Source of the DNA: a virus
DNA length: 32,386 nt
Reading direction: 5' to 3' (one strand)
IMG/VR virus record: IMGVR_UViG_3300010354_000328
Span: 1 to 32,386 of that record
In this document: piece by piece, positions 16,401 to 32,386 of the stretch
How the letters are laid out: each line of letters starts with the position of its first letter
Numbering within the stretch: the stretch's first letter is position 1
The notes under the pieces: generated by a model
What the model saw: only the letters and a program-made list of their open reading frames with translations
What the model was told of the DNA's origin: nothing
The model's database searches: none
Program-made: the position numbers and the translations under genes

Positions 16401-19400
16401 AGCTTGTGGTCTTAAAGTTTTATCAGATGCATATTCAAATCCTTGCTCTAAAATTTGAACATTGTTTATATTTCCGATAGATCTAGATCTTGGTAATAAA
16501 CTTGCACCATTTCCACTATCACTTTGGACTGATTTAAAAATTGGAATATTTTTGTATCCGAAACCTGGGAAAAGAATATCAATTCCCGCTATTCCTCCAG
16601 TAACAGTTTTTGACTTTGTTGTGTATTTTAATACATCGCATTCCGATGAAAGATATGAATATCTTTCTGGTTCTCCATTAACGTTTATATTAAATATTGT
16701 TGATGATGAACCTACTACGCCACTTATTTTATAAGTATTGTTATAAACACTGTCAGTAAATAAAATTTCAGATCCAAATTGAACTGTTTTGTCTGATGTA
16801 CTAATATAACCAGATTTTTCTAATCCGTAAAAAAGTTTTGGAGGTAAGTCATCAGAATAATTTAAAGTAACTGAAGTTAACGAAGATCCATAAGAAACAT
16901 TGAAAACTGAAGTACTTGCAACGGAAACAAATTCATTTTTTAAATCAGAATCATAGAAAAACTTTAATTTATAATTGGACAGAGAAGAATCGGAAGTATC
17001 AAAAACTATGTTCGTATTTTTATAACTTTTAATTTGTGGATTTATCAACCCAATTTTATGACCAGATCCAGAAGAAGAAATGCCAATTATATTTGGAATT
17101 TCTTTCTTAACGTCTAAAATTGTTTCACAAAGTTTTATGGTGTTGATATCAACACCATAAACGTAATATTCACCATTCACTAAACCATTTATTGGAGATG
17201 TTGATTTGTATAAAATCTTATCTCCAGTTTTTAATCCATGATTTGGTAGTGTAATGGAGTTTTGATCTGAATTTACATCTCCATTATTAAATTCTTCAAA
17301 ATTCAAGATTAACTTTTCAAAATCAGCATCATAAAAAACTTTAATTGATGATGAAGTTGTTCCAATACCAACGGATATATTTGGTTGTACAATTAATTTA
17401 ATTTCTTCCCCATTTTGTAATTTGTGATATGTATTCAAACCAACAGTTGTTGTTATTCTTTGTACTTGGCATGTGGTTTGTTCCTCCTGACTTTCAAAAT
17501 AATAATCATATGCATTACTACCTTGATTGGTTATATAAACTGGAGAGGAAGATATCCCAGCAATTGTAGAAAATCCGATATAATCTTTTGATTGATTAAT
17601 AATATAAACTGCGGAAGTATCTTCTCCGTCTTCTGGCCAATGAAATGCAGTTGATCCTGGAGTTGTTGAAATTGCTAAAGGATTTTTAGAATTTGACTTT
17701 CCAAGTAAAACTCTTTGTCCAGTTCTAAATGGATGATTTGGTAAATATATGCTTTGTGTTTGTACAGAAATTGGAGTATATACATTACCAATTCTATAAG
17801 ATTTATTAATACCAATTCCAGGAGTTGTTCCAATACCAACTGACTCATGTGGATTGAAATAAACTTTATCCCGTGGTTTAGATGCAAAATAATCAGTATT
17901 AACCGCAATATCAAAACTGTTTGCTAAAATAGATATTTCAGTCGTTTCCGTATGTGCGGCACCAACATCAGATCTTTTAACTCTTAAAACGGCATCATTT
18001 CTAAAAATATTTAAAACTGATAAAAATTCATTTTCAATTCTTAAAGTACTTCCTACAGATAAACTATTTGGAATTCTAGAAACATAGATATCTGTTACAA
18101 ATCCAGCAACACTATTTGATGGTAAATGTTGTTGTAAAAATGTTCTATCTGAAGAAAATCCTATTACATGGTTTTTAGATATTTTGGTATTAACCATGCT
18201 TAAACCTGAGATAACAACAGTATCTAAATTTGTTAATGTATGATATGGAAGAGTATAAATTTTTACTGTTCTAGGATCTTTCCATTCAACAATAGAATTT
18301 GTATATGTCTCAATATTTGTTTTGACACTTTCTACATCTACCCCCTCCAATGAAGAAACTATAGCATCCAAACCTCCACCAACATCAGATGATTCAAATA
18401 AGACCTTATCATTTATCTTATAATTTTTTCCACTTTCAATAATATCAATACTATCAACAGAACCTCTAGATATTGATTTAACAACACTGATTTGATTTAT
18501 AAGTTCGTTTGATTCTATGATAAAATCATTTCCAGCATAATCGGAAGAAACTTTATATGGGAAAGTATTTCTTGATAAATTGCTATTATTAAAATCAAAA
18601 GACTGATCTAAAAATTCGTTTTCTTTTATTTTTGGAGATTTGTAATTATTTCCAATAAAGAATGGATATCTTGGTTGTAGAGTATTTGATCCAACATTTG
18701 TTTGTATACCAGCAAAATAAGCATATACACCGTCAGGAAATTCTGGTGTTTTACCATAACGACCATTATGTATATCTAAGTCCCCAGAGTCATTAAAAAT
18801 ATAATCATCTACAAAGTAACCTGCAGGAAATTCTTGTAGAGAAGGTCTGTTCTTTACGGAATTAGGGTCTAATACATATCCAGAATTTAATAACCTAGTG
18901 AATTGAGATTCATTTGGTTGAGAATAACCATATGGACCATAAATTGGATTTCCATCATACGCCCATCCAATTATTGGAGAATGTAAAGGATTTTGACTTG
19001 GTAAAGAATCTTCAAACTCTTGAACACCCAATGTTGGGGAATATCCAACCCATGAATATTTAAGACCACCATTACCATTAACTAAAATTTCATCACTTGT
19101 TCTAAACTGTTTATTTAAAGATAAAGGTCTAATATTTGTCTTAATAAAAGCTCCAGTTCCTCTTGGGATAACTCTCAATGAAGTATTTGAGTTAGAATAT
19201 CCAATTCCAGAATTAACAACTATTACATTTTCTAATTTGTTATTAATAATAACAGGTCTTAAAATAGCACCGGTGCCAGAACCTTCTACTCTTATTTCTG
19301 GAGTTGAATAATATTCAACTCCCTTACTCAGTACATCAACCTGTACAATTTTTCCATCAACAATTGTCGGTCTGACTTCAGCATTTTTTCCGGTTTTAAT

Positions 19401-22400
19401 TGTTATATTTGGAGTTTTTTCTAAATTTAAAATAGAAGATCCATAATTACTTCCTTCTTCATATAGATAAGCATCTACAATACTTCCAGTGACAACAGGA
19501 GTAGCTGTTATTATACCAGTAATACTACTTCCATATGAAACAGTGACAGAAAGAGAAATATCGGGATATTTAAAAATGTGATATCCATAATCTGATGGAT
19601 CTGTTCCTATTCCAGTGGAAGAAAATCTAACATACTTTTTCCTATCAAAATCTTCACTAATTGTGGCGCCAATGCTAACTAATCCAGCATTTGCTAATTG
19701 AAAAGTATTTTCATCATTTCTAATAATTTTATAGTACCTATCTGAAGATAACCCAGATATTGGAGTTTTAGTATAATTATATAATACAATATCTCCGTGA
19801 TTAAAATTATGATTTTTGAATGTTATAGTATTTGTTGCCGATGATATGCCACTACTTTTTACATATAATTGCCTATTTTCATATCCAGATCCAGGATTAA
19901 TAACTTTAATTGATTGTAAAACTTTTTTAGGAAGAGTACGAAACTTGTGTACACCTGAAGTATTTTCTGTAGTAATTCCTACAGTGTTAATTCCAACAGA
20001 AAAATCAAATTCAGTTTCATATAATCTGATAGTTTTTGGATTTACCCAACCAACATAATATCTCGAACCATTAACCAATGTTCTATCGAATGCATTACTG
20101 ATAGAAGATGGTAGAGGTGATTTGAAATATGTGCTTATTCCCAATGGACTGTTTCCATTAGGATTATAAATTATTTCTTGACCATTTACAAATTTATGAT
20201 CTTCTTTAAACGTTATAGTTTCTTCTGTTAAATCTATTCCACCACCAGATAATGTTGGACGAGCATCAAATTCAACTTCTCTAAATTTTTGAGTAACAAT
20301 GGGTTCAAAAACTGCACCAGAACCATTACCACCACTTAATACTACAGAAACTACTTCAGAAATTTCAAAATCTTGGGGATCAACATAAACATCTTTTACA
20401 TTTCCTCTAACAACCGCTTTAGATAAAGCTATTGTTCCATCTGTAGATCCAAGTGAAATTGGAGAATCTACCACTAATTCTGGTAGTCTTACTACATCAT
20501 ATCCATTTCCACCATTGAAAACCGTTACATTCGTTAATGGTCCATAATAAATTTTATTGTCTGATTTTGGACTTGCAATTTCAACACCATTTATTAGTAA
20601 ACCTACTCCACCAGATCCAATATCTTCTCCCACATTTCTACTAATGTTTTGAGATAATGGAAATTTTCTAAGTAATCTTTGAGCACCTATATTTTTATCA
20701 GAATTTTCTGATAAAATAAAACGATGTATGCCATCATTTGAAGATGGTGGAATGAAAGTAATATAACTTTCTGTACCAACAAAAGATCTAGAAGGATATA
20801 GTCTTATTTGTGTTTTAAATCCTTGATTTTGTGGGTCAACTTGAACAAAATACTCTCTGCCATCAATTAATCCAACTAAAGAATTATTGTCTGATTCATA
20901 TATGATGGAATCTCCAGTTTGAAGATCTGTATCCACATCAAAAGAGATAATACTATATGAAGATTTTTCTTCATCAAAACCTTGAATATATCCTTGACCA
21001 ATGGAGCTTAGAAATGGAGATCCTAATGCAGATGGAATAGTAGACTCAATTATTTTTTTGGATACATTGTAGTTTGGTAATGAGTTTGATGCAATATATG
21101 CATATTGGTTATCAACATATAAATTTTGTACGGAAGAAATTATTTCACCATTTCCTCCTAAAATATTTGCACCATTGCTTGTAGCATAATTTAATCTTCT
21201 TCTAAGATCATATTTTTTTGATGGATCTGGAACAGATGATGCTAATTGAACTTGTTTTAAGTTTTTATCTATATTTAAAACTTGAACATTAGCAACTACA
21301 ATATCTTGAGATCCAAGAAATAAAATATCGACGTAGTCTCCTACTTTTAAACTAGATTCATCAATAGTACTAAGTAATGTGTAGATAGATCCATTAATAT
21401 TGGAAACTTCATATCTACAACTAGTGTTGTAAATTAATGAATTTGCAAATATTTCTTTATAAGATTTATCGGATTCTGGATTTTCAATAATTTCTCCAAT
21501 ATTTTTGACAAATATTTTTTCACCTTCTTTTGCTATAAACTCATCACTTTCTGGTATAAATGATGATAAAACACCAGTCAATCTAAGCTCAACTTTTTTA
21601 TTTAAATCACCATTTTCATATCCAAAAATAGTTTCTGAAGATCTTATGTCTGAGGCAACAGGAATTGGTTGAATAATACCACTACAACCAAAAAATTGAT
21701 TTACGCTTTTACTTGTATAAGTTATTGTATTATTTCCACTTATTATTGTTCCACTTTCTGGAAATCCTATAGTGGAATCTACTGATATTACAGTTGAATT
21801 TGTATTAACTGCTTTTAAAACTCTTGTTTTTCCAGAAATAGCAAAACTTCCTTGTGGAATGTCCTCATCATATCCAACAAATAATGCTAGTTTATAATAA
21901 GTTTTATTTCCTCTCGTTAAAATTTCTACAGCAGAAACACTACTTTCTACTGAAGTATCTAATGTTCTCCTAACAGTTTGACCAAGAAGATTTAATGGAT
22001 TTCCAGATATTCTTTCCGCAATGACGATTTCTTTTCTATTTAAATCGGCAGATGATGCTTTTAAAAGATATTGCTCAAGGTCTATAACCTTTGGTTCCTC
22101 ATTATAAAGTATCTTAAATAAAATTTTAAAAGACTCTGGTGTTCCTTTTGCTTGATAAAAATCTCTAGATTGCTTTATAAAATTACTGACATCTAAATTT
22201 TCAGTAAATTCTACTTTTTCTAACCCCGGAGCAAAAGAATATCTAATTTTATCATAAAATTCTTTTAAAAATAGAGCACTTAGATTAGTAACAGTTGAAG
22301 AATTATTATGGGAGGATGCATTACTTGTGGTAAAAACTAATTCTCCAGGATCATTTTTACTATTATATTCAGTGATAGCAGAAAATCCACGGATACAACC

Positions 22401-22757
22401 AGTAAAAGTATTGGTTGTTAATCCAGTATATGTGATGATTTCATCGTCAATTTTAAGCAATCCATAACTAGATGGATAACCTTTTGTTGAAATGACGGGA
22501 ATAGTTGATGAAGATTCCGTTATTGAAGATGTTAAACTAGTAGTTCCAGAACGCACTTCTGGAGTTATATTATCAATTTTTAAATATTGATCTAGATTTT
22601 CTGCAATATCAACTGGACCACCTTGATATTCCTGAGAAATATAATATTGTTTTAAAAAATCAACATATTTTGGAAAATCCGATCTTACAAATTCTGGTAA
22701 TTGGCTTTCAATAACTTGCTGTACTTTAACTCTAGAATCAAAACCAGTTTGAATCAT
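10449..22757 (-). CDS. Giant gp7-position baseplate protein with YHYH domain, 4,102 aa
   Basis: This 4,102-residue virion protein sits between gp6 and gp8, the place of T4 gp7 (1,032 residues). Residues about 193-265 (SRDFYQAKGTPESFKILFKI, LYNEEPKVIDLEQYLL, LLGQTVRRTL) resemble the C-terminal part of T4 gp7 as I remember it (SYDFYSTKGIEASYKFLFKV, LYNEEVEIE). The gp7 core is therefore at the N-terminus here and some 3,800 residues follow it. Residues about 1257-1372 form a YHYH-type domain (HSPIIGWAYDGNPIYGPYG, later LDIHNGRYGKTPEFPDGVYA). Two small beta motifs recur: one beginning H-x-[FL]-x-x-G-[DE] (near 851, 981, 1669, 1832, 2951 and 3362), and one with G-x-GY. A good Shine-Dalgarno (AGAGGAAA) lies inside the end of gp6. 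It is presumably a wedge scaffold extended into an external fibre-like structure. Confidence 0.85.
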   Translation of the reverse strand: MIQTGFDSRVKVQQVIESQLPEFVRSDFPKYVDFLKQYYISQEYQGGPVDIAENLDQYLKIDNITPEVRSGTTSLTSSITESSSTIPVISTKGYPSSYGLLKIDDEIITYTGLTTNTFTGCIRGFSAITEYNSKNDPGELVFTTSNASSHNNSSTVTNLSALFLKEFYDKIRYSFAPGLEKVEFTENLDVSNFIKQSRDFYQAKGTPESFKILFKILYNEEPKVIDLEQYLLKASSADLNRKEIVIAERISGNPLNLLGQTVRRTLDTSVESSVSAVEILTRGNKTYYKLALFVGYDEDIPQGSFAISGKTRVLKAVNTNSTVISVDSTIGFPESGTIISGNNTITYTSKSVNQFFGCSGIIQPIPVASDIRSSETIFGYENGDLNKKVELRLTGVLSSFIPESDEFIAKEGEKIFVKNIGEIIENPESDKSYKEIFANSLIYNTSCRYEVSNINGSIYTLLSTIDESSLKVGDYVDILFLGSQDIVVANVQVLNIDKNLKQVQLASSVPDPSKKYDLRRRLNYATSNGANILGGNGEIISSVQNLYVDNQYAYIASNSLPNYNVSKKIIESTIPSALGSPFLSSIGQGYIQGFDEEKSSYSIISFDVDTDLQTGDSIIYESDNNSLVGLIDGREYFVQVDPQNQGFKTQIRLYPSRSFVGTESYITFIPPSSNDGIHRFILSENSDKNIGAQRLLRKFPLSQNISRNVGEDIGSGGVGLLINGVEIASPKSDNKIYYGPLTNVTVFNGGNGYDVVRLPELVVDSPISLGSTDGTIALSKAVVRGNVKDVYVDPQDFEISEVVSVVLSGGNGSGAVFEPIVTQKFREVEFDARPTLSGGGIDLTEETITFKEDHKFVNGQEIIYNPNGNSPLGISTYFKSPLPSSISNAFDRTLVNGSRYYVGWVNPKTIRLYETEFDFSVGINTVGITTENTSGVHKFRTLPKKVLQSIKVINPGSGYENRQLYVKSSGISSATNTITFKNHNFNHGDIVLYNYTKTPISGLSSDRYYKIIRNDENTFQLANAGLVSIGATISEDFDRKKYVRFSSTGIGTDPSDYGYHIFKYPDISLSVTVSYGSSITGIITATPVVTGSIVDAYLYEEGSNYGSSILNLEKTPNITIKTGKNAEVRPTIVDGKIVQVDVLSKGVEYYSTPEIRVEGSGTGAILRPVIINNKLENVIVVNSGIGYSNSNTSLRVIPRGTGAFIKTNIRPLSLNKQFRTSDEILVNGNGGLKYSWVGYSPTLGVQEFEDSLPSQNPLHSPIIGWAYDGNPIYGPYGYSQPNESQFTRLLNSGYVLDPNSVKNRPSLQEFPAGYFVDDYIFNDSGDLDIHNGRYGKTPEFPDGVYAYFAGIQTNVGSNTLQPRYPFFIGNNYKSPKIKENEFLDQSFDFNNSNLSRNTFPYKVSSDYAGNDFIIESNELINQISVVKSISRGSVDSIDIIESGKNYKINDKVLFESSDVGGGLDAIVSSLEGVDVESVKTNIETYTNSIVEWKDPRTVKIYTLPYHTLTNLDTVVISGLSMVNTKISKNHVIGFSSDRTFLQQHLPSNSVAGFVTDIYVSRIPNSLSVGSTLRIENEFLSVLNIFRNDAVLRVKRSDVGAAHTETTEISILANSFDIAVNTDYFASKPRDKVYFNPHESVGIGTTPGIGINKSYRIGNVYTPISVQTQSIYLPNHPFRTGQRVLLGKSNSKNPLAISTTPGSTAFHWPEDGEDTSAVYIINQSKDYIGFSTIAGISSSPVYITNQGSNAYDYYFESQEEQTTCQVQRITTTVGLNTYHKLQNGEEIKLIVQPNISVGIGTTSSSIKVFYDADFEKLILNFEEFNNGDVNSDQNSITLPNHGLKTGDKILYKSTSPINGLVNGEYYVYGVDINTIKLCETILDVKKEIPNIIGISSSGSGHKIGLINPQIKSYKNTNIVFDTSDSSLSNYKLKFFYDSDLKNEFVSVASTSVFNVSYGSSLTSVTLNYSDDLPPKLFYGLEKSGYISTSDKTVQFGSEILFTDSVYNNTYKISGVVGSSSTIFNINVNGEPERYSYLSSECDVLKYTTKSKTVTGGIAGIDILFPGFGYKNIPIFKSVQSDSGNGASLLPRSRSIGNINNVQILEQGFEYASDKTLRPQAAISPIIIVKDSYNLDKVNITFGGRNYFSPPKLILVDADQNLILDDNNLEPVVASGSISDVKILSPINGISLDNHRVIAVDNSNGVFISSISQSGNDITCILSTPITGFSTDVFSIGEEIFVEGIEKDSPYGTGFNSKDYNYRFFKVKSYVNTVPATVTFDLSNLTTNPGFAKSAQSGFGAVVSKSNYPTFTIEQSPSLFLNSEPLLVDTGSGFIQRDSIVSETNPGFFKIIGPYVPSTDDIVRGKYSGVQARVSEVIENSGKFGVSFSNISNLGWNDDVGKLNVSNQTTPDNDYYQNLSYSIRSSIEYEKMITSVNSLLHPSGLKNFSDTQIENSVIVDYDTVTNDIILLDIIEDKRVDTINNFDLVSDIYTVGGKSRFIKLENKTLSDYFLCLSNRVLKIDDFGPKFLNRESLTQETDVITDTIVNPYQQYLVQISDPISKETQLTEVVVLYNGASVFTLEKATLVTKNEKLGDIQGVKDDADNVYLGISPADLFDTDYDFKILKQKFISEDNTGIGTQSVGFVDLTSSNNFIGVSTNSITGIATIFSTDVNKIKSAYFNIFIKNVVKNKLYYSEVFLDHDSSNTYISDFSFDTSTGFSTSLPGSFDADIVSGNLILKYTNLDSNGVLVQSNVIGFGTTAVGIGTYRFKETLQLDGTERSSRFETLVSSGISTTNVIQLNTVLDSAVKSVIRVSYGNTSALHQVMMTHDENDSYTVQYPFLSIGSTSGIGTFGSEIDGSNVIMKFYPDQNIGESVEINSFNEILYRDFDLSNLPPTLEYGTSSYEVILSQYNAINGERREALAFDANNFGIPIFEKQFTPYNSSQVDPVTGIIKIQSHFFQTGEELIYTPTSTFPGLPASSIGIGNTLNSVGIVTNVLPNRVYAIKVSEDELKLSTRRDYAFLGIGVTITSFGQGNAHLLEMVKKDEKCIISINGVVQKPLTFTPIAYNLNSNPNAKVSVGQTFISLSGIATIRSKDLLKVNNEYMKIVNVGLAETISGPIVGFGTYKLAEVRRGSVGTAESTHDDGSIARIYRGAFTVSGRKVYFTDPPKGNANQRIGQNNLIAARDQFSGRVYLRQDYTKNVIYDDISDQFTGIGQTFEITVQGISTSGIETGSGVVFINDIYQTPTTSNNAGNNYFYGENAGKTLIQFTGISSSNGDLIISDFDINQNQLPRGGVVVALGSTNGLGFAPLVGAKVKASVGAAGSITNIVSIAYTGTGKNVSTATYNNSTGIAEITTITPHELVAGDSVKLIGLGFTTASSGIVTYLPPSGLSGSYGVAGIVSARTFTAFIGYSTSTHFYVGMGTIFPWYNLNYGSGYRQPVSIAITDSSHTGSAANISAIVGAGGTLSFVINDGGSGYSTSTVQIDIEDPSYENLPVIGVSRVATGATTECGKGLLVSLEVGASSTTGIGSTLFEVTSFKITRPGYSFEIGDVIKPIGLVTALGLSSPVREFELTVTDIFDDSFSSWQFGELDFIDSIALLQDGRRTRFPLYYNSQLLSIETDPNVLGSSDIDLSSVLLIFINGVIQEPNVAYNFSGGTSFTFSDPPGPDAKISIYFYRGTRGVDSKLINITETIKNGDIVQVYGSTSYPFQQDNRIVYNISSSDVIETNVYSGIGVTEDFTRPLYWTKQKVDRFINGDPVYKSRDSLETQIYPSAKVIYDVKPLDTEIFVDDAAFFKYEQDKYGITIDSFNLLLQDSEEPRSASLSASINSGEVTTINILDGGSGYDVASLPIKFAKPPSLDYPGNIGIGSTATGIAYVTSGIVTFVTITSPGYGYTVAPQVLVPTPTLKTELLTDIDGSAVSGFSGIITGITTTSGFGGHPLALKFFLQRKDPSLNFSELLVNYPIYIRDTNVGNGITSVDFVNSDVIGISTNFVDNIYRIHSITRDADRAFIICNIESGSNIVGIATTGTREYPIGKFSWGKLGSITRNLTNPVSIGVTGLIIDSGLSTFPTAQRRGFGLRDLGAIRKISTVKNVT

Positions 22758-27715: not shown

Positions 27716-27891
27716 TCCATTGGATTTATAAAAACTTCTTTATAACTTAGATCCGAAACATTATAATCTGTCTTCATCAACCCAACCATACGATTCATTG
27801 TTTTCCAAGTAATATCAAATTCATTTTCTGGTATCAAATCCATTAAGCATTTATTTTTTCCATAAATTTGATATATTTTAACTTTATTCAT
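27712..27891 (-). CDS. Hypothetical small protein, 59 aa
   Basis: This 59-residue protein begins MNKVKIYQIYGKNKCLMDLI and ends YKEVFINPMD. I chose the ATG at 27891 because it overlaps the preceding AbrB-like gene's stop by eight bases (ATGAATAA) and has a GAGAGAA purine stretch just before it; a start further upstream would extend it inside that gene. The protein looks like a small alpha/beta fold with a strand near the N-terminus. I do not recognise a family. Its TGA stop lies inside the -35 of the glycosyltransferase promoter. Confidence 0.68.
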   Translation of the reverse strand: MNKVKIYQIYGKNKCLMDLIPENEFDITWKTMNRMVGLMKTDYNVSDLSYKEVFINPMD

Positions 27892-28060
27892 ATTCTCTCT
27901 CAGTAAGTATGAGATCATTTCCTTCTATGGAAAATTTGATCTCAGTATCTTCATACCAAGATAGTTCATTTGCAACCCATTCAGGAATTACAATATTATA
28001 TTTCCCAGTAATTGGATCAACCTGTATGGATTCAAAATTTTCCCCGCGATTTTTTTTCAT
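27884..28060 (-). CDS. AbrB/SpoVT-like swapped-hairpin protein, 58 aa
   Basis: This 58-residue protein resembles the AbrB/SpoVT/MazE-type swapped-hairpin DNA-binding domain. After a basic start (MKKNRGENFESIQVDPITGK) comes the strand YNIVIPEWVANELSWYEDTE, where IPEWVANEL fits the usual IP-x-x-[LV]-x-x-x-L pattern, then IKFSIEGNDLILTERE, the second hairpin. Such domains dimerise and act as transition-state regulators or antitoxins. I use the ATG at 28060; an in-frame TTG at 28081 is possible. A TATAAT (28089-28094) lies 28 nt upstream of this ATG. It is coupled by overlap to the following 59-residue gene. Family assignment is by pattern only. Confidence 0.68.
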   Translation of the reverse strand: MKKNRGENFESIQVDPITGKYNIVIPEWVANELSWYEDTEIKFSIEGNDLILTEREYE

Positions 28061-28094: not shown

Positions 28095-28257
28095 TAGTGA
28101 CCTTATTGCAAAATTTTTATGTCGAAAATTTTTTTCATTTTGAATGTAATATTACTCTCGCTTGGGTAACACTTTATAGCTTAAGGGATCCATTGGTTTT
28201 TATAACGCGCCCCGCGCCACGGGGACGGCGGCGGGGGGGACTGCTGATCACGAACGC
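28095..28257. other. Non-coding junction between AT-rich and GC-rich DNA
   Basis: I see no gene in this stretch. The left half (to about 28,190) is AT-rich and on the minus strand contains weak late-promoter-like sites such as GCTATAAAGTG and GTTATAAAAACC. The right half turns abruptly GC-rich, with a small hairpin at 28210-28224 (CCCCG and CGGGG arms around five bases) and a run of seven Gs. It separates the mini-gene array from the AbrB-like gene. Confidence 0.6.
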
Positions 28258-28283
28258 AAAGGGGGCAGGCAGTGCCCACCCCC
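28258..28283 (-). terminator. Terminator-like hairpin after the first GC-rich gene
   Basis: Eight bases after the stop of the 80-residue gene the minus strand can fold GGGGG and CCCCC arms around an inner GGC/GCC stem, separated by a small internal loop, followed by only three Ts. It is in the right place for an intrinsic terminator, but the T run is weak. Confidence 0.45.
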
Positions 28284-28291
28284 GTCGTTGA

Positions 28292-28534
28292 TCAGAAGCG
28301 GCAGGCGAGCGGGGAGTGCCCCACGCGCTCTGCCAGGCGATCACGGGCAGCAGCGATCCGATCGGCGCGGTGGGTTGCCTTGGCGGCGGCGATGGCAGCG
28401 GGCAGGTCCTTCACCATAGAGGCGCCCAGTCCACGGGCAGGGGTCATGGTGCTGCCACGTCCGCTGCTCACGCGGATCGCCTGTCCTTTCACGTTCAGGT
28501 CGGAGGAACGAACGGTGCCGATTGCGCGGGTCAT
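28292..28534 (-). CDS. Hypothetical basic protein of the mini-gene array, 80 aa
   Basis: This 80-residue protein begins MTRAIGTVRSSDLNVKGQAI and has an alanine- and arginine-rich second half (LPAAIAAAKATHRADRIAAA, about residues 44-63) that should form a helix. I do not recognise a family. The start lies 31 nt downstream of the -10 of a strong sigma70-type promoter (28566-28593), a slightly longer distance than for its neighbours, and there is no Shine-Dalgarno. Frames on the opposite strand also stay open here because of the GC content, so the call rests on the promoter, the following hairpin and the tandem arrangement. Confidence 0.6.
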   Translation of the reverse strand: MTRAIGTVRSSDLNVKGQAIRVSSGRGSTMTPARGLGASMVKDLPAAIAAAKATHRADRIAAARDRLAERVGHSPLACRF

Positions 28535-28565
28535 GAGAGGAGGGGGGGTTGGTTGAACTGAGAGT

Positions 28566-28593
28566 ATTGTAGCAGATCGGGGGCAGGGGTCAA
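28566..28593 (-). promoter_or_regulatory. Sigma70-type promoter with stop codon in the -35
   Basis: On the minus strand -35 TTGACC (28588-28593), a 16-bp spacer, and an extended -10, TGC followed by TACAAT (28566-28571), then ACTCTCAG. The TGA inside the -35 is the stop codon of the upstream 68-residue gene. The promoter drives the 80-residue gene 31 nt downstream. Confidence 0.82.
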
Positions 28594-28796
28594 CCCTGCA
28601 GGGAACGCCACCCGCTCACGGGGCAACGAACATCGGGGGAGAGGGTCTCAGAGTACTGGGCGGCGATGGCGGCAGTGGGCACACCCCAGTGCTGGTATCC
28701 AGTGGGGCGGTAGGCGTTGCGCTCCTGATCAGCACGGGAGATCCATTTGATCTGACGGGTCTGGAGGTCAGAGCACATGGAGAGGGGGAAGATCAT
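28590..28796 (-). CDS. Hypothetical protein of the mini-gene array, 68 aa
   Basis: This 68-residue protein begins MIFPLSMCSDLQTRQIKWIS and contains RPTGYQHWGVPTAAIAAQYS, a well-patterned tryptophan and tyrosine segment that argues for real coding sequence. An internal start (MCSDLQ, six codons in) is possible. The chosen ATG lies 21 nt downstream of the -10 at 28818-28823, like its neighbours. No Shine-Dalgarno is visible (the leader is C-rich). The stop codon overlaps the next promoter's -35. I do not recognise a family. Confidence 0.65.
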   Translation of the reverse strand: MIFPLSMCSDLQTRQIKWISRADQERNAYRPTGYQHWGVPTAAIAAQYSETLSPDVRCPVSGWRSLQG

Positions 28797-28817
28797 GGGA
28801 GGGGGTGGTTTGAGAGT

Positions 28818-28845
28818 ATTGTAGCAGATCGGCGGCAGGGGTCAA
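28818..28845 (-). promoter_or_regulatory. Sigma70-type promoter with stop codon in the -35
   Basis: On the minus strand -35 TTGACC (28840-28845), a 16-bp spacer, and an extended -10, TGC then TACAAT (28818-28823), then ACTCTCA. From -35 to -10 it is almost identical to the promoter at 28566-28593. The TGA in the -35 is the stop codon of the 59-residue gene upstream. Confidence 0.82.
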
Positions 28846-29021
28846 TCCATCCCCAATGCCGCTTTCAGATCCTGGTATGCTGCCAACCAATGAGCAGCGT
28901 CGGCGTGGTTGCCCTTGGTGCTCTCATCACAGGCGATGCAGAGCAGGGCGGTGCGGACGGTTCCCCACGTGCGCTCAGGCAGAGTGACGGTGGTGAGGGT
29001 GGCAGGATTCCAGGAGGTCAT
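28842..29021 (-). CDS. Hypothetical protein of the mini-gene array, 59 aa
   Basis: This 59-residue protein begins MTSWNPATLTTVTLPERTWG and ends in an amphipathic helix (DAAHWLAAYQDLKAALGMD, about residues 41-59); two cysteines sit in the middle (LLCIACDES). I chose the ATG at 29021 because it lies 22 nt from the -10 block at 29044-29049 and directly after a leader sequence (CCGCAACGGACCT) that is repeated before another gene of the array. An upstream in-frame start would lie before the promoter. I recognise no family. Confidence 0.7.
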   Translation of the reverse strand: MTSWNPATLTTVTLPERTWGTVRTALLCIACDESTKGNHADAAHWLAAYQDLKAALGMD

Positions 29022-29043
29022 GAGGTCCGTTGCGGATGAGAGT

Positions 29044-29049
29044 ATTGTA
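29044..29049 (-). promoter_or_regulatory. -10 block with CTCTCA tract
   Basis: The minus strand reads TGCTACAATACTCTCA, an extended -10 identical to those at 28566 and 28818, 22 nt before the ATG at 29021. A consensus -35 is not present at the right spacing (GTGACC is only 11 bp upstream), so strength must come from the extended -10 or another factor. Confidence 0.65.
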
Positions 29050-29062
29050 GCAGGTCGGGGGG

Positions 29063-29224
29063 TCACTGCCCGTTGGTGTAGTCTCCGATGATGACCCCAT
29101 TGCAGCGGACCTGGGCGTAACCGTACTCTTCAGAGAGGTCCAGGCAGAGGTCCCAGGCACGGTCCTCATCGGTGGTCGTGTTCTCCCAGGGAGCGGAGGG
29201 GCAGATCACGTCGTAGCGGGTCAT
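29063..29224 (-). CDS. Hypothetical acidic protein of the mini-gene array, 53 aa
   Basis: This 53-residue protein begins MTRYDVICPSAPWENTTTDE and continues with an acidic helix (DRAWDLCLDLSEEYGYAQVR) and a final strand (CNGVIIGDYTNGQ). The start has one of the best ribosome sites of the array (AAAGGAAAC just upstream) and lies 23 nt from a perfect TATAAT (29248-29253). I recall comparable short acidic proteins in cyanophages but cannot name a family. Two cysteines are present. The stop codon lies in the G/C-rich stretch just upstream of the next -10 block. Confidence 0.75.
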   Translation of the reverse strand: MTRYDVICPSAPWENTTTDEDRAWDLCLDLSEEYGYAQVRCNGVIIGDYTNGQ

Positions 29225-29247
29225 TTGGTTTCCTTTGAACTGAGAGA

Positions 29248-29253
29248 ATTATA
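29248..29253 (-). promoter_or_regulatory. -10 block with CTCTCAG tract
   Basis: The minus strand reads TATAATTCTCTCAGTTCAAA, a perfect -10 with the tract shared by the other mini-gene promoters, 23 nt before the ATG at 29224. No clear -35 at 16-18 bp. Confidence 0.65.
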
Positions 29254-29258
29254 GGGGG

Positions 29259-29426
29259 TCAGCGGCGGATCAGGTCGCCTGCGGTGTACAGTGCGTCTGC
29301 TGTCACATGGCGGACGGGTTGAATCGGTTCCCAGAGCAACCACAGGAGGACAGCGGCGACGGAGAGGCGGACCATGGTCTGGCGGTGATAGGATGCGGAG
29401 CGGGAACGGGTCAGAGCGCGGATCAT
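29259..29426 (-). CDS. Small membrane protein of the mini-gene array, 55 aa
   Basis: This 55-residue protein begins MIRALTRSRSASYHRQTMVR, a strongly basic N-terminus, followed by one hydrophobic segment (LSVAAVLLWLLWEPI, about residues 21-35) and a polar C-terminus (ADALYTAGDLIRR). By the positive-inside rule it would be a single-pass protein with the N-terminus in the cytoplasm. The ATG overlaps the stop of the upstream gene by four bases (ATGA), so it is translationally coupled and needs no promoter of its own. An internal start (MVRLSVAAV) would leave only the membrane part. Function unknown; phage mini-proteins of this shape can target host membranes, which is inference. Confidence 0.62.
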   Translation of the reverse strand: MIRALTRSRSASYHRQTMVRLSVAAVLLWLLWEPIQPVRHVTADALYTAGDLIRR

Positions 29427-29581
29427 CGCCCATCCCAGACCTGAGAGGTCCAACCGTCGCGCATCATGCGGCGGCGATCATAGGCGTCGGCATCCATGAG
29501 GTCATCATGCTCCAGGTCCTCACCCCACTGACCAAGGGCAGCGCCCCACTGGGGGAAGGTCAGGTCGTCGGTGTTGGTCAT
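29423..29581 (-). CDS. Hypothetical acidic protein of the mini-gene array, 52 aa
   Basis: This 52-residue acidic protein begins MTNTDDLTFPQWGAALGQWG and continues EDLEHDDLMDADAYDRRRMM. I chose the ATG at 29581, 22 nt downstream of the TATACT -10 at 29604-29609; the frame extends further upstream but those codons lie over the promoter and terminator. It overlaps the next gene by four bases. The tryptophan spacing and acidic helix argue for a real, folded mini-protein, possibly a binder of a host target (inference). No family recognised. Confidence 0.68.
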   Translation of the reverse strand: MTNTDDLTFPQWGAALGQWGEDLEHDDLMDADAYDRRRMMRDGWTSQVWDGR

Positions 29582-29603
29582 CGGGTTCGTTTGATCTGGA
29601 ATC

Positions 29604-29637
29604 AGTATAGAGGCAAAAGGGAGGGGTCTCCCCCTCC
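29604..29637 (-). promoter_or_regulatory. Composite terminator-promoter element
   Basis: On the minus strand a hairpin (GGAGGGG and CCCCTCC arms around GAGA, 29620-29637) followed by CTTTT forms an intrinsic terminator for the 43-residue gene. The hairpin runs straight into TATACT (29604-29609), a -10 that is 22 nt before the next ATG; the matching -35 position lies in the hairpin (GGGAGA, weak). Outer bases GGC and GCC flank the hairpin as in two other copies of this design. Confidence 0.65.
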
Positions 29638-29649
29638 GTTGTGCCACTA

Positions 29650-29781
29650 TCAGAATTGGATCTCCTGGTCGGTGGGTTCGGCGGCAGCGTCCTCAGGAGA
29701 GGCAATGGTCTCCAGGATCTGCAGGATCTGCTCACCGTTGCTACCTTGACGGAGCAGGGAGAGAGCAAGTTCGCGGGACAT
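29650..29781 (-). CDS. Conserved small cyanophage protein, 43 aa
   Basis: This 43-residue protein begins MSRELALSLLRQGSNGEQIL and continues with QILETIASPEDAAAEP. I recall small proteins with almost this N-terminus (SRELALSLLRQG, GEQIL) in several T4-like cyanophages, always unnamed. The first 27 residues look like two short helices and resemble a mini helical hairpin. The ATG is at 29781; no clear promoter of the array's standard type lies 20-30 nt upstream, although a TGATACAAA sequence is close by. A terminator-like hairpin follows the gene. Confidence 0.75.
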   Translation of the reverse strand: MSRELALSLLRQGSNGEQILQILETIASPEDAAAEPTDQEIQF

Positions 29782-29815
29782 AGTGTGTTTGTATCAGTGT
29801 GGTTTGCTGGGCGGA

Positions 29816-29843
29816 GAATGTTTACTGACCCCTCCGCCTAATG
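29816..29843. other. Hairpin in the gap before the 43-aa gene
   Basis: Within the 88-bp gap between the 60- and 43-residue genes, GGCGGAG and CTCCGCC are perfect complements separated by about 15 bases. There is no T run on either side, so this may be a weak terminator of the upstream gene or a leader structure. Coordinates are approximate to a few bases. Confidence 0.4.
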
Positions 29844-29869
29844 GGTCACGGGTTCAGGGTGCCAGTGCC

Positions 29870-30052
29870 TCAGGCGGCACAGGGTTCGGGAATCAGGCGC
29901 AGCACGTCATCCTCCCAGCGGTAGAAGGTCAGGATGTCTTCGTAGGCGGCGTCAATGGCACGGCAGGCATCCGCTTTCAGGATGGCATTGCGGCACTGCT
30001 CAGCGATCTCATCAATGCTGCAGGCGCGGTCGGTGGCGGGGTTGTAGCGCAT
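29870..30052 (-). CDS. Hypothetical protein of the mini-gene array, 60 aa
   Basis: This 60-residue protein begins MRYNPATDRACSIDEIAEQC and is mostly helical (RNAILKADACRAIDAAYEDI), ending in DILTFYRWEDDVLRLIPEPC. That tail resembles the end of the 77-residue protein elsewhere in the array (EILTFKRREDGILEQV), which suggests a shared short motif or common origin. Four cysteines are present. The ATG lies 24 nt after the -10 block at 30077-30082. Function unknown. Confidence 0.7.
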   Translation of the reverse strand: MRYNPATDRACSIDEIAEQCRNAILKADACRAIDAAYEDILTFYRWEDDVLRLIPEPCAA

Positions 30053-30076
30053 GGGGTTCAGGTGTGAACTGAGAGA

Positions 30077-30082
30077 ATTGTA
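30077..30082 (-). promoter_or_regulatory. -10 block with CTCTCAG tract
   Basis: The minus strand reads TACAATTCTCTCAGTTCA, nearly the same as the block at 29248, 24 nt before the ATG of the 60-residue gene. No convincing -35 at standard spacing. Confidence 0.62.
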
Positions 30083-30123
30083 GGGCAGTCTTTAGGGCGC
30101 TGCCGTTCCCAGTGTGCCAGAGG

Positions 30124-30219
30124 TCAGACCGTCACCCTCCAACCACAGCGGGGGCAGGAAGGATGCCCACCGCAGGGGCAGGATGCGGCAACGGTCAGGG
30201 GGTCGTTGGAGCGGAGCAT
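30124..30219 (-). CDS. 31-residue putative zinc-binding mini-protein
   Basis: This 31-codon frame starts at the ATG at 30219 and stops at TGA 30126-30124. Its centre, SCPCGGHPSCPRCGW, places C14, C16, H19, C22 and C25 in a C-x-C-x2-H-x2-C-x2-C arrangement, a plausible single zinc site. The start is well supported: a TGAGGGA ribosome site lies just upstream, and the CATACT -10 of a composite terminator-promoter is 23 nt away, the spacing of the other array genes. I know no named family; a role in binding a host protein or nucleic acid is a guess. Confidence 0.6.
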   Translation of the reverse strand: MLRSNDPLTVAASCPCGGHPSCPRCGWRVTV

Positions 30220-30242
30220 TGGAATCCCTCAGGAACAAACGT

Positions 30243-30277
30243 AGTATGGCACGGGATCGGGGGGTCCTCAACCCCCC
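30243..30277 (-). promoter_or_regulatory. Composite terminator-promoter element
   Basis: On the minus strand GGGGGGT and ACCCCCC pair around TGAGG (30259-30277), 20 bases after the stop of the 77-residue gene. The loop supplies a -35, TTGAGG (30266-30271), with a 17-bp spacer to CATACT (30243-30248), 23 nt before the zinc-binding mini-gene. Outer GGCAC and GTGCC flanks extend the symmetry. There is no T run, so termination may be weak. Confidence 0.68.
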
Positions 30278-30297
30278 GTGTGCCAGTTAGTCGGGTG

Positions 30298-30531
30298 TCA
30301 CACTTGCTCCAGGATGCCATCCTCACGGCGCTTAAATGTCAGGATCTCCTGCAGGGCAGGGATCTGCTCAATCCAGCGCATCTCCATCTTGGTATAATCA
30401 TACCCCTGATCTTTCAGTTCCTTAGTGTAGGCAACTGCTGCAGAGTGATAGTCAAACAAGCGGAGAGAACTGAAGTCTTCGCCTTCATAATCCCATCCAC
30501 CGATCACAGCGTAGGCGCGGGGCAGAGTCAT
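30298..30531 (-). CDS. Hypothetical protein of the mini-gene array, 77 aa
   Basis: This 77-residue protein begins MTLPRAYAVIGGWDYEGEDF and continues SSLRLFDYHSAAVAYTKELK, an alpha/beta pattern with a likely strand-helix unit (YAVIGGWDYEGE, then the helix SAAVAYTKELKDQGY). I recall short cyanophage proteins with the VIGGWDYEGE segment, unnamed. Its C-terminal EILTFKRREDGILEQV resembles that of the 60-residue protein. The ATG lies 22 nt from the -10 block at 30554-30559, behind a leader identical except at two positions to that of the 59-residue gene. Confidence 0.78.
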   Translation of the reverse strand: MTLPRAYAVIGGWDYEGEDFSSLRLFDYHSAAVAYTKELKDQGYDYTKMEMRWIEQIPALQEILTFKRREDGILEQV

Positions 30532-30553
30532 CAGGTCCGTTGCGGTTGAGAGT

Positions 30554-30559
30554 ATTGTA
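30554..30559 (-). promoter_or_regulatory. -10 block with CTCTCA tract
   Basis: The minus strand reads TACAATACTCTCA followed by ACCGCAACGGACCT, 22 nt before the ATG at 30531. Upstream is a GC-rich run (GGGGCGCCACCCCC) right after the preceding stop codon, and no consensus -35. Confidence 0.65.
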
Positions 30560-30573
30560 GGGGGTGGCGCCCC

Positions 30574-30819
30574 TCAGAATGCCACCAGTTGGTCCAGATC
30601 CCATTGTGGCACAACCGCCACCGTAGCAAGGGTGCTGGCATTCTCTGCCAGCCAGCGGTTGACATGCTTGCTGGTGGTGACGCTATGCTTCACAGCAGTC
30701 CGCATCCAACCCTTGCCAGGCACCAGGGCGGCGACGGGGGTGGAGTAGGAGAACAGGACCTCAGTCCCGTCTGCCAGGGAGACCTGGGTTTGATTGCTGC
30801 CGATGGGTTGAACCTTCAT
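30574..30819 (-). CDS. DUF8033-like protein, 81 aa
   Basis: This 81-residue protein begins MKVQPIGSNQTQVSLADGTE and contains VLFSYSTPVAALVPGKGW (about residues 22-39) and KHSVTTSKHVNRWLAEN (about 44-60). The pattern of a short beta sheet with SYxTPVA and an SVTTSKHxNxWL helix matches small cyanophage proteins now grouped as DUF8033, as I recall. Function unknown. Unlike the rest of the array it has a long 5' region: no -10 block is seen at 20-30 nt, the best candidates being TAAGAT (30877-30882) and a TATAAT block (30940-30945). An AGAGGA ribosome site precedes the ATG. Confidence 0.75.
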   Translation of the reverse strand: MKVQPIGSNQTQVSLADGTEVLFSYSTPVAALVPGKGWMRTAVKHSVTTSKHVNRWLAENASTLATVAVVPQWDLDQLVAF

Positions 30820-31113
30820 GAGGTGTCCTCTAATGCTTTGGGGTGGGGTGCTGATCTCCCCTACAGCAAGTGAAGGATCTTACCACAGGACCTGTCCCGC
30901 TGTCGGGTGGTTTCGCTGGGAGGGTTCGCTTCTGAAAGTATTATAGGGGGTGAGGGGGGCAGGTCTACGGGGTGTGGTCCAGTTCAAAAAGTGGCACACG
31001 GGCAGCCGCTTCGCTCCCCCCTGGGCTCTATGATAAGGGCACAAGCGAAGGAGGGGCGGGGTAGCCCTGATGATGAAAACGGTCGCCACGCCCCCTGCCA
31101 TAAAATAAAAATA
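30820..31113 (-). other. Long 5' region of the DUF8033-like gene
   Basis: I see no convincing gene here. On the minus strand the stretch holds TATAATACTTTCAG (-10 at 30940-30945), then about 120 nt of leader that includes the palindrome ACAGGTCCTGT and a second possible -10, TAAGAT (30877-30882) with CCGACA 18 bp upstream. Frames that stay open across it run through both candidate promoters and have the unstructured composition of GC-rich non-coding DNA. It may be a regulatory leader or the remnant of a lost mini-gene. Confidence 0.5.
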
Positions 31114-31146: not shown

Positions 31147-32055
31147 TTATGCTGTCTGAAACCTCCCAGAGTTAAAGTTTGCCCGCGAAAATACCTCACG
31201 GTTAACTAACTTAAACATGCCAAACTCATTGGACATCACATAACCTTCCGCATCAATTCTTTCGTATCCCTGATAAGGAGAACCCAGATAAGCGGCAGGT
31301 CCGTTGTTACGGCAGAGGAACAAACAGTCATCTTTGATTGACTTCACCAGTGCCCACAGACGCAGCAGGTTAGCATCACAATCAAAGTTCTCAGGATTGA
31401 CTTCCTCACCAGCACGAATGCAGGCATTGATCTGTTGTTTGATCTTTGCCGCTTCCTTATCACTCACAAAGGTTGCAGTTTGTGCCATTTGGCGGGCAAA
31501 CTTGCAGACCTCCTCAACATCAGCGAACGACTCTTGATTGTGCAGGATGTATGCATTCGGTTGCACAAACTTCACGTGCTCAGTGTCATTCCAGATGCTA
31601 CGGTCAGGGAATGCCTCAGCATCACGAAGATCGCTCTCAGCATAATAGCAAGTGTGAGGAGCGATGATAATCTGCTGGGAAACTACCTCAGGAAACTGAT
31701 ACGTGATCGTGTTAGGTTTGTACTCATTGTCACCACCAAACCCGATAAAGTCACCCTGATAAATGGTCTCAAATCGGGGCAGATAATCAAAGCAAACGTG
31801 AAGAATACGCGCAACTTCGCCCTGATAGAAGAGATCAATCTCCTCATGATTGTGAGCGATACGAATCTTTTTCTTGTTAAATACTGCCTTGGTTCCTACA
31901 AAGAACTCACCGCAGGCAGGATCAATCCCCCACACGATTGCAGGGGCACCGTCAATCTTAACGCTCAGATTGCCCTGAGCAGTGAACCAATCAAGGCACG
32001 AAAGATCACCCGTCAGGATGGTGTCTTCGGGGTGTTCAAGGTGGGTGTTTTTCAT
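31147..32055 (-). CDS. Ligase-type nucleotidyltransferase-like protein (DUF6267-like), 302 aa
   Basis: This 302-residue protein has motifs of the ATP-dependent DNA/RNA ligase nucleotidyltransferase fold. SVKIDGAPAIVWG holds motif I with candidate nucleotide-binding lysine K33 (K-x-D-G), FFVGTKAVFNKKK follows, YQGDFIGFGGDNEYKPNTIT could be motif III, and the C-terminus holds EGYVM (E270) and MFKLVNRE (K282), like motifs IV and V. I recall this family in cyanophages, now called DUF6267; no reaction is known to me, and there is no separate OB-fold domain. The N-terminus MKNTHLEHPEDTILTG is conserved, which fixes the ATG at 32055. That ATG is only 6 nt below a CATACT -10, so the mRNA may be leaderless. 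GC content is lower than in the mini-gene array. Confidence 0.82.
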   Translation of the reverse strand: MKNTHLEHPEDTILTGDLSCLDWFTAQGNLSVKIDGAPAIVWGIDPACGEFFVGTKAVFNKKKIRIAHNHEEIDLFYQGEVARILHVCFDYLPRFETIYQGDFIGFGGDNEYKPNTITYQFPEVVSQQIIIAPHTCYYAESDLRDAEAFPDRSIWNDTEHVKFVQPNAYILHNQESFADVEEVCKFARQMAQTATFVSDKEAAKIKQQINACIRAGEEVNPENFDCDANLLRLWALVKSIKDDCLFLCRNNGPAAYLGSPYQGYERIDAEGYVMSNEFGMFKLVNREVFSRANFNSGRFQTA

Positions 32056-32061
32056 GATCTT

Positions 32062-32096
32062 AGTATGGCACGAAAAAGGGGGGTCCGCAACCCCCC
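32062..32096 (-). promoter_or_regulatory. Composite terminator-promoter element
   Basis: On the minus strand GGGGGGT and ACCCCCC pair around TGCGG (32078-32096) and are followed by TTTTT (32077-32073), an intrinsic terminator for the gene at the right edge. The loop also supplies a -35, TTGCGG (32085-32090), with a 17-bp spacer to CATACT (32062-32067). The next ATG follows after 6 nt. GTGTCAC and CGTGCC flank the hairpin. The element is a near copy of 30243-30277. Confidence 0.75.
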
Positions 32097-32104
32097 GTGT
32101 GACA

Positions 32105-32386
32105 CTAAACGAACTGGCACACAGGCAGTGCCACTTCGGTCATCAGGACGCTCTCCTGGCGGAAGGCGGTTTTGAATGCCTCAGCGATCTCTGCCACGCT
32201 GTCGCTGTCGTCGGTGATAAAGGTCAGGATCGTAACCTGCTCTTGCTCACCCTTCCAGAATCCCACGCCTTCGGTGACGGTGAAACCGTCAAAGCGGGGG
32301 CAGACTTCCTCACGAATGAAGGTCTGCATCATCGCCTTGGTCACCGTGCCCGAATCGGGGATGTTGCGACCGAGGAACAGTTGGAA
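32105..32386 (-). CDS. DUF3574-like protein (5' end beyond window)
   Basis: The frame is open to the right edge, so the start lies outside. The visible 93 residues begin FQLFLGRNIPDSGTVTKAMM, continue EEVCPRFDGFTVTEGVGFWK and end with FRQESVLMTEVALPVCQFV. The succession LGRxIPDxGxV, PRFDGFTV, GxWxG and QESVL resembles DUF3574, a small ferredoxin-like fold family of unknown function, by pattern from memory. An internal GTG at 32344 would remove the conserved LFLGRNIP strand and is unlikely to be the start. A terminator-promoter element follows the stop. Confidence 0.72.
   Translation of the reverse strand, partial: FQLFLGRNIPDSGTVTKAMMQTFIREEVCPRFDGFTVTEGVGFWKGEQEQVTILTFITDDSDSVAEIAEAFKTAFRQESVLMTEVALPVCQFV

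Follow-up and report, generated by a model that had tools for sequence, protein, structure and literature searches.

Positions 28,292 to 30,559 of the virus record IMGVR_UViG_3300010354_000328, a 32,386-bp IMG/VR contig analyzed here at its full length (the window), carry a row of very small genes separated by recurrent promoter-like elements. We interpret this block, with a probability of roughly three in four, as a hypervariable cassette array in which phage recombination at a shared promoter core swaps single genes, much as in the promoter early stem-loop (PeSL) cassettes of T4-type phages, with a different promoter. The contig derives from an uncultured T4-like cyanophage of freshwater; its nearest named phage is S-SRM01 (Kyanoviridae), and P-SSM2, S-SM2, and others also match. 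The newest part of the finding is the promoter architecture, which combines either a dyad or an extended -10 with the lack of a -35 box.

An initial annotation, made from the sequence alone, had described eight mini-genes (31-80 aa) at regular distances from a -10-like element and had suggested that they may be an early-expressed, host-directed set. All of its distances are exact: measured from the end of the hexamer to the ATG, the gaps are 31, 21, 22, 23, 22, 24, 23, and 22 nt, all on the minus strand. Six elements do match TA[CT]AAT[AT]CTCTCA without mismatch, as it stated, and these TAYAATWCTCTCA sites, all on the minus strand (Table 1), are the only ones in the 32,386 bp, where the reversed pattern does not occur. 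A seventh core with one mismatch shows that the array continues beyond the block (30945-30933). Overlooked at that stage were three genes (29650-29781, 29259-29426, and 30574-30819, the last a member of phrog_5643), a dyad box, and an island rich in guanine and cytosine (GC). GC content is ~31% up to 25 kb and 54-62% from ~28.2 to 31 kb (a ~3-kb island), and third-position GC is 73% in the mini-genes versus 13% in the contig's large genes.

Two protein scans retrieved related loci from ~147 viral contigs. Motif counts refer to 154 loci (1.34 Mb), six of which are slices of the window. The motif occurs 331 times in this set, compared with a single occurrence of the reversed control, and is followed by the first ATG after 14-20 nt in nearly all cases; in whole records of relatives it is concentrated in the array-type block. 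This count and the fixed spacing bear out the proposal that the regularity exceeds chance, and equal frequency of the motif away from start codons, named at the outset as the observation that would speak against it, was not found in the relatives. Open reading frames (ORFs) led by the motif number 366, corresponding to 195 distinct proteins in ~55 families (26 singletons), and 96% of them reach at least 40 aa, versus 36% for other ATGs in GC-rich DNA. In every family tested, differences fall mostly at codon position 3, and among codons with a single difference synonymous changes equal or outnumber non-synonymous ones. The mini-gene families are under purifying selection, and with this codon-position signature the small frames, which had been put forward as credible, are real genes. 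Six families (F1, F2, F3, F7, F11, and F17) are represented in the window and two more genes resemble F8 and F20; family F2 has no match among sequenced phages.

Gene content and order vary between contigs, and for some families as many as 11 different upstream neighbors were counted; F2, for example, comes before F11 in the direction of transcription in the window and after it in locus L062. We compared swap pairs, in which one flanking gene is common at >85% identity and the other is different. When the downstream gene is common, homology usually stops 0-13 nt before the -10 (control median -3), and when the upstream gene is common, it stops at +13 to +37, mostly +13 to +19, from directly after CTCTCA (control median +14). 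Many gene pairs are almost identical on one side of the core and show no identity on the other side. Each alternative joint was recovered from separate assemblies, with F12 following F31 in L104, L105, and L106 and F18 in L081, L082, and L084, which argues against assembly chimeras. In recent gene swaps homology is lost at the promoter core, and the gene-exchange junctions sit at the element. These end points suggest that the -10 and leader travel with the downstream gene and the hairpin or dyad stays with the upstream gene, the core being the shared seam. The idea that single genes are shuffled between phages is supported by such differing combinations and sharp junctions. The related idea of self-contained promoter-gene cassettes stands in part: there is mostly one promoter per gene, but the exchanged unit is not simply a promoter with its gene, and two of the genes (29423-29581 and 29259-29426) form an operon coupled by ATGA.

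We propose to read the block as a hypervariable array of early-type gene cassettes in which tiny genes lie in a row on one strand, typically with one short regulatory seam between them. Each seam would run from the upstream stop codon, often through a GC hairpin with a probable role in terminating or protecting the upstream transcript, to the -10 core, the leader, and the next ATG. Within the core, TAYAAT-WCTCTC-A, transcription by host RNA polymerase would begin at the A of CTCTCA, this fixed start region being followed by a 15-20-nt C/A-rich leader that usually has no Shine-Dalgarno sequence. The -35 would be replaced by an extended -10 (TGC), which should work alone, or by the dyad, a probable binding site of a dimeric factor with its right half starting 37-39 nt upstream of the -10. 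Different genes could be joined at the core because its ~25 nt are near-identical in every seam and in every related phage, and recombination there would exchange single genes, each still expressed, as a functional equivalent of the T4 coliphage PeSL mechanism.

Several observations weigh against this model. Intergenic DNA spans only ~45 nt and all compared sites were selected by the motif, so that junctions there are partly expected; this locates the joins and does not by itself prove the mechanism. Hairpins are found in only about a quarter to a half of the seams, and a T run follows 3 of 71 hairpins of the GC-rich class. In S-SRM01 the same promoter heads multi-gene runs, which makes one promoter per gene a property of the block and not of the promoter. 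A less probable but substantial alternative is a promoter array without any role in recombination, in which one factor or the host polymerase needs the exact core, illegitimate recombination turns the genes over, and selection keeps the joints that leave a promoter intact. CTCTCA lies in the discriminator and start region, a plausible place for a promoter constraint, S-SRM01 retains TATAATACTCTCA before its gene runs, and the junction positions are just somewhat beyond the control. On the other hand, junctions coincide with the core repeatedly and for many gene pairs, with the one-sided identity described above, and near-identity over ~25 nt is more than promoters usually need.

The promoter itself was examined with a column profile built from 106 non-redundant sites. 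In it, no columns are conserved at the position of a -35 box, the extended -10 is of the CTGC type, and the leader is rich in C and A and mostly lacks a Shine-Dalgarno sequence. Matches of at least 4/6 to a -35 occur in 22% of no-dyad sites versus 7% in shuffles. A canonical sigma-70 promoter, with a -35 hexamer at 16-18 nt, was rejected because the -35 is not conserved. Conservation of WCTCTCA is not purely a selection effect, since 151 of 218 sites chosen by TGC and TACAAT alone in GC-rich DNA still carry it. A host origin of the promoter was rejected, GAYCTGCTACAATACTCTCA having no match in 84,980 prokaryote genomes, and a search of 50,697 phage records gave no good match to core and leader together (43 nt).

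The dyad (consensus TGTGCCASTT-N4-AACTGGCACA) frequently extends over the stop codon of the upstream gene, and its right half starts 37-39 nt before the -10; among CTGGCACA sites, ~56% have a -10-like hexamer at 36-38 nt, against ~5% in the background. Dyad and extended -10 are nearly exclusive in the CTCTCA class: TGn before the -10 in the absence of a -35, the arrangement of an extended -10 promoter, is present at 69 of 87 no-dyad sites versus 3 of 29 dyad sites (p = 3e-11, or 3e-9 with stricter redundancy removal; loci not fetched by the TGC pattern). The exclusion is weaker when any -10 is admitted (9/126 versus 191/826), and TG is also found in 31 of 109 dyad promoters. Within the window, TGC without a dyad is found at cores 28571, 28823, and 29049, and the box without TG at cores 30082 (8/8), 30559 (6/8), and 30945 (6/8). 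Core 29253 lacks TG and has a degenerate dyad only, and both CATACT promoters have dyad and TG.

The dyad-spacer-promoter element is also present in the isolates S-SRM01, S-PM2, and P-SSM2. Copies of TATAATACTCTCA lie near 49135, 50237, 54708, 57392, and 61594 in S-SRM01. Full-genome matches to TGGCACA-N29-33-TATAAT number nine in P-SSM2, five in S-PM2, six in S-SRM01, and one in Syn9, and zero in the reversed controls. Prokaryote genomes contain 11 scattered matches to the full dyad, mostly in unrelated bacteria and one in a contig labelled uncultured cyanobacterium; this scatter makes a phage-coded dyad factor likelier than a host one. A reading of TGGCACA as a sigma-54 -24 element was rejected because the spacing is wrong; moreover, cyanobacteria are not known to have sigma-54. 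Two starts in the isolates merit attention. The annotated start of S-PM2p035 (L285; AJ630128 9900-10190) lies upstream of its own -10, and the in-frame ATG at ~9933, 21 nt after TATAAT, is likelier. In MW015081 (57380-57410) the S-SRM01 promoter is followed by an ATG at ~57408, where no gene is annotated. We give even odds to the broader proposal of a Kyanoviridae promoter class not described in the literature consulted, in which a dyad at a fixed distance from the -10 would recruit a dimeric activator and could be traded for an extended -10, giving two expression classes, with the shared core serving as the seam for single-gene exchange.

Stems of at least 7 bp directly upstream of the core occur at 50 of 200 sites, compared with 17 expected from dinucleotide shuffles (21 of 109 versus 5 in the dyad class), and the excess is absent inside genes and further upstream. 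A GC hairpin with a T run is found at 32096-32078, 29637-29620, and 28283-28261, and most CTCTCA seams have none; some S-SRM01 and S-PM2 elements have such a hairpin before the -10. These structures may act as terminators, but many may not, given the near absence of T runs in the GC-rich class. It is improbable, in our view, that the dyad and hairpins are simply RNA 3'-end elements (terminators or stabilizers) of the upstream gene, unrelated to the promoter. That role would suit the T-run hairpins of the two isolates, the overlap of the dyad with the upstream stop, and its occurrence at some 3' ends that no gene follows; it explains neither the placement of the right half at 37-39 nt from the -10 regardless of a hairpin nor the fact that dyad and extended -10 seldom share a promoter. 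In GC-rich DNA small ORFs abound (half of random ATGs give at least 25 aa), but chance motif-like strings and spurious frames are refuted by the reversed control, the codon-position signal, and the fixed spacing.

Among known systems, PeSL cassettes of T4-type phages, reportedly described by Arbiol in 2010 and Comeau in 2014, come closest, and the array is best read as a cyanophage counterpart with a new promoter architecture. As in PeSL, a composite promoter, in some seams with a stem-loop, lies between small hypervariable genes, with shared sequence where genes exchange; the array has a promoter that recurs in the intergenic DNA ahead of small, variable-region genes and, with the caveat that its seams are short, gene-exchange junctions at the element. 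Unlike PeSL, it has no -35, uses an extended -10 or dyad with a fixed CTCTCA start region, has hairpins often without a T run, and forms a GC-rich island in an AT-rich phage. In T4 middle promoters the MotA box and extended -10 co-occur. They resemble the array in lacking a -35 box and having an upstream activator-like box, but the array was not assigned to this type, since its dyad and TG are mostly exclusive in the CTCTCA class and its box, unlike that of MotA, is a dyad with the right half starting 37-39 nt before the -10. Marine cyanomyoviruses lack motA and asiA, and their early/middle control has been called unclear (PMC2984593, PMC5780444). The "ORFanage" of S-PM2 is likewise a cyanomyovirus cluster of small ORFans in shuffled order (Puxty 2015, PMC4503421). 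Unlike the array, it has its genes in operons with few elements; few PeSL-like elements were reported there and a PeSL mechanism was judged unlikely (PMC4503421). We found the dyad-spacer-promoter element in the ORFanage at 5090, 8587, 9870, and 11361. Haloviruses HGTV-1 and HF2 also have repeated intergenic promoter elements before many genes, those of HGTV-1 having an inverted repeat and being proposed to aid shuffling (PMC3950731, PMC8707807), but they are archaeal viruses with promoters of the TATA-box type.

Table 1. Genes and regulatory features of the array and its flanks (positions in the window; gap, hexamer end to ATG; exact, TAYAATWCTCTCA site).
Feature	Position	Strand	Remarks
Terminator-like hairpin	28261-28283	-	10 bp, then TTTGCG; closes array
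Mini-gene, 80 aa, F3	28292-28534	-	Gap 31 nt; motif-led; family in 25 loci with third-position excess
Core TACAATACTCTCA	28559-28571	-	Exact; extended -10 (TGC), no dyad; TTGACC 16 nt upstream of hexamer
Mini-gene, 68 aa, F1	28590-28796	-	Gap 21 nt; family in 31 loci
Core TACAATACTCTCA	28811-28823	-	Exact; extended -10 (TGC), no dyad
Mini-gene, 59 aa, F11	28842-29021	-	Gap 22 nt
Core TACAATACTCTCA	29037-29049	-	Exact; extended -10 (TGC), no dyad
Mini-gene, 53 aa, F17, phrog_17176	29063-29224	-	Gap 23 nt
Core TATAATTCTCTCA	29241-29253	-	Exact; no TG; upstream only degenerate dyad-like stretch (box 4/8)
Gene, 55-aa hydrophobic protein	29259-29426	-	ATGA overlap, start on stop of 29423-29581; same C-terminus in loci L020/L041
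Mini-gene, 52 aa	29423-29581	-	Promoter TATACTGATTCCA, TATACT, gap 22 nt
-10 TATACT	29604-29609	-	Hairpin 29620-29637 with T-rich tail; box GTGGCACA 29640-29647
Mini-gene, 43 aa, resembles F8	29650-29781	-	By sequence similarity; weak -10 only
Mini-gene, 60 aa, F2	29870-30052	-	Gap 24 nt; family in 31 loci
Core TACAATTCTCTCA	30070-30082	-	Exact; no TG
Dyad right half CTGGCACA	30113-30120	-	38 nt before -10
Mini-gene, 31 aa, cysteine-rich (CPCGGHPSCPRCGW), resembles F20	30124-30219	-	Gap 23 nt, CATACT
-10 CATACT of 31-aa gene	30243-30248	-	
Hairpin GGGGGGTTGAGGACCCCCC	30259-30278	-	Between dyad and -10
Dyad GTGTGACACCCGACTAA-CTGGCACA	30279-30303	-	Overlaps stop of 77-aa gene
Mini-gene, 77 aa, F7, phrog_17343	30298-30531	-	Gap 22 nt
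Core TACAATACTCTCA	30547-30559	-	Exact; no TG; upstream GC hairpin and box CTGGACCA (6/8) 30590-30597
81-aa gene, phrog_5643, F4 in relatives	30574-30819	-	PHROG E 1e-28; at least 100 viral relatives
Core TATAATACTTTCA	30933-30945	-	Box CTGGACCA 30975-30982, left half GTGTGCCACTT; 120 nt before 81-aa gene
Dyad (TGTGCCAGTTCGTTTAGTGTCACA), GGGGGG/CCCCCC hairpin with T run, -10 CATACT	32062-32125	-	Of 302-aa DUF6267 gene 31147-32055

The 120-nt leader of the 81-aa gene (30820-30945) is unusually long for the array, and relatives of that family have the usual short one. A small AbrB/MazE-like gene (27884-28060; weak Pfam match, E 0.12) adjoins the array. Its counterparts in some relatives (family F28) are themselves motif-driven, and it is no more than a candidate for the factor that would bind the dyad. 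The GC-rich island (28190-31100, third-position GC 73%) lies within a phage of 30-37% GC and keeps its position among relatives, with matching blocks in L058, L051, L020, L045, and L105. In a 205-kb relative with a median GC of 37%, the block matching the array is the sole place above 50% (2-kb steps). The island may stem from a high-GC gene pool or from GC-biased repair during frequent recombination. Elsewhere in the window, a 4102-aa ORF (10449-22757) stands where P-SSM2 has its giant baseplate wedge initiator gene (gp7), and a 79-aa ORF (32105-32344) matches DUF3574 (E 5e-12) and, weakly, S-AdoMet lyase (E 2e-4).

How cyanophages switch on early and middle genes and how their ORFan pool turns over have been described as unclear (PMC2984593, PMC4503421). 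The element offers exact start sites, two promoter versions to compare, and a concrete gene-exchange junction, and the motif reliably flags tiny genes that annotation often overlooks. Cultured S-SRM01, S-PM2, and P-SSM2 carry the element, which makes it testable in existing isolates. If our reading of the promoter is true, its two versions would supply the regulation that is missing in cyanophages without MotA and AsiA.

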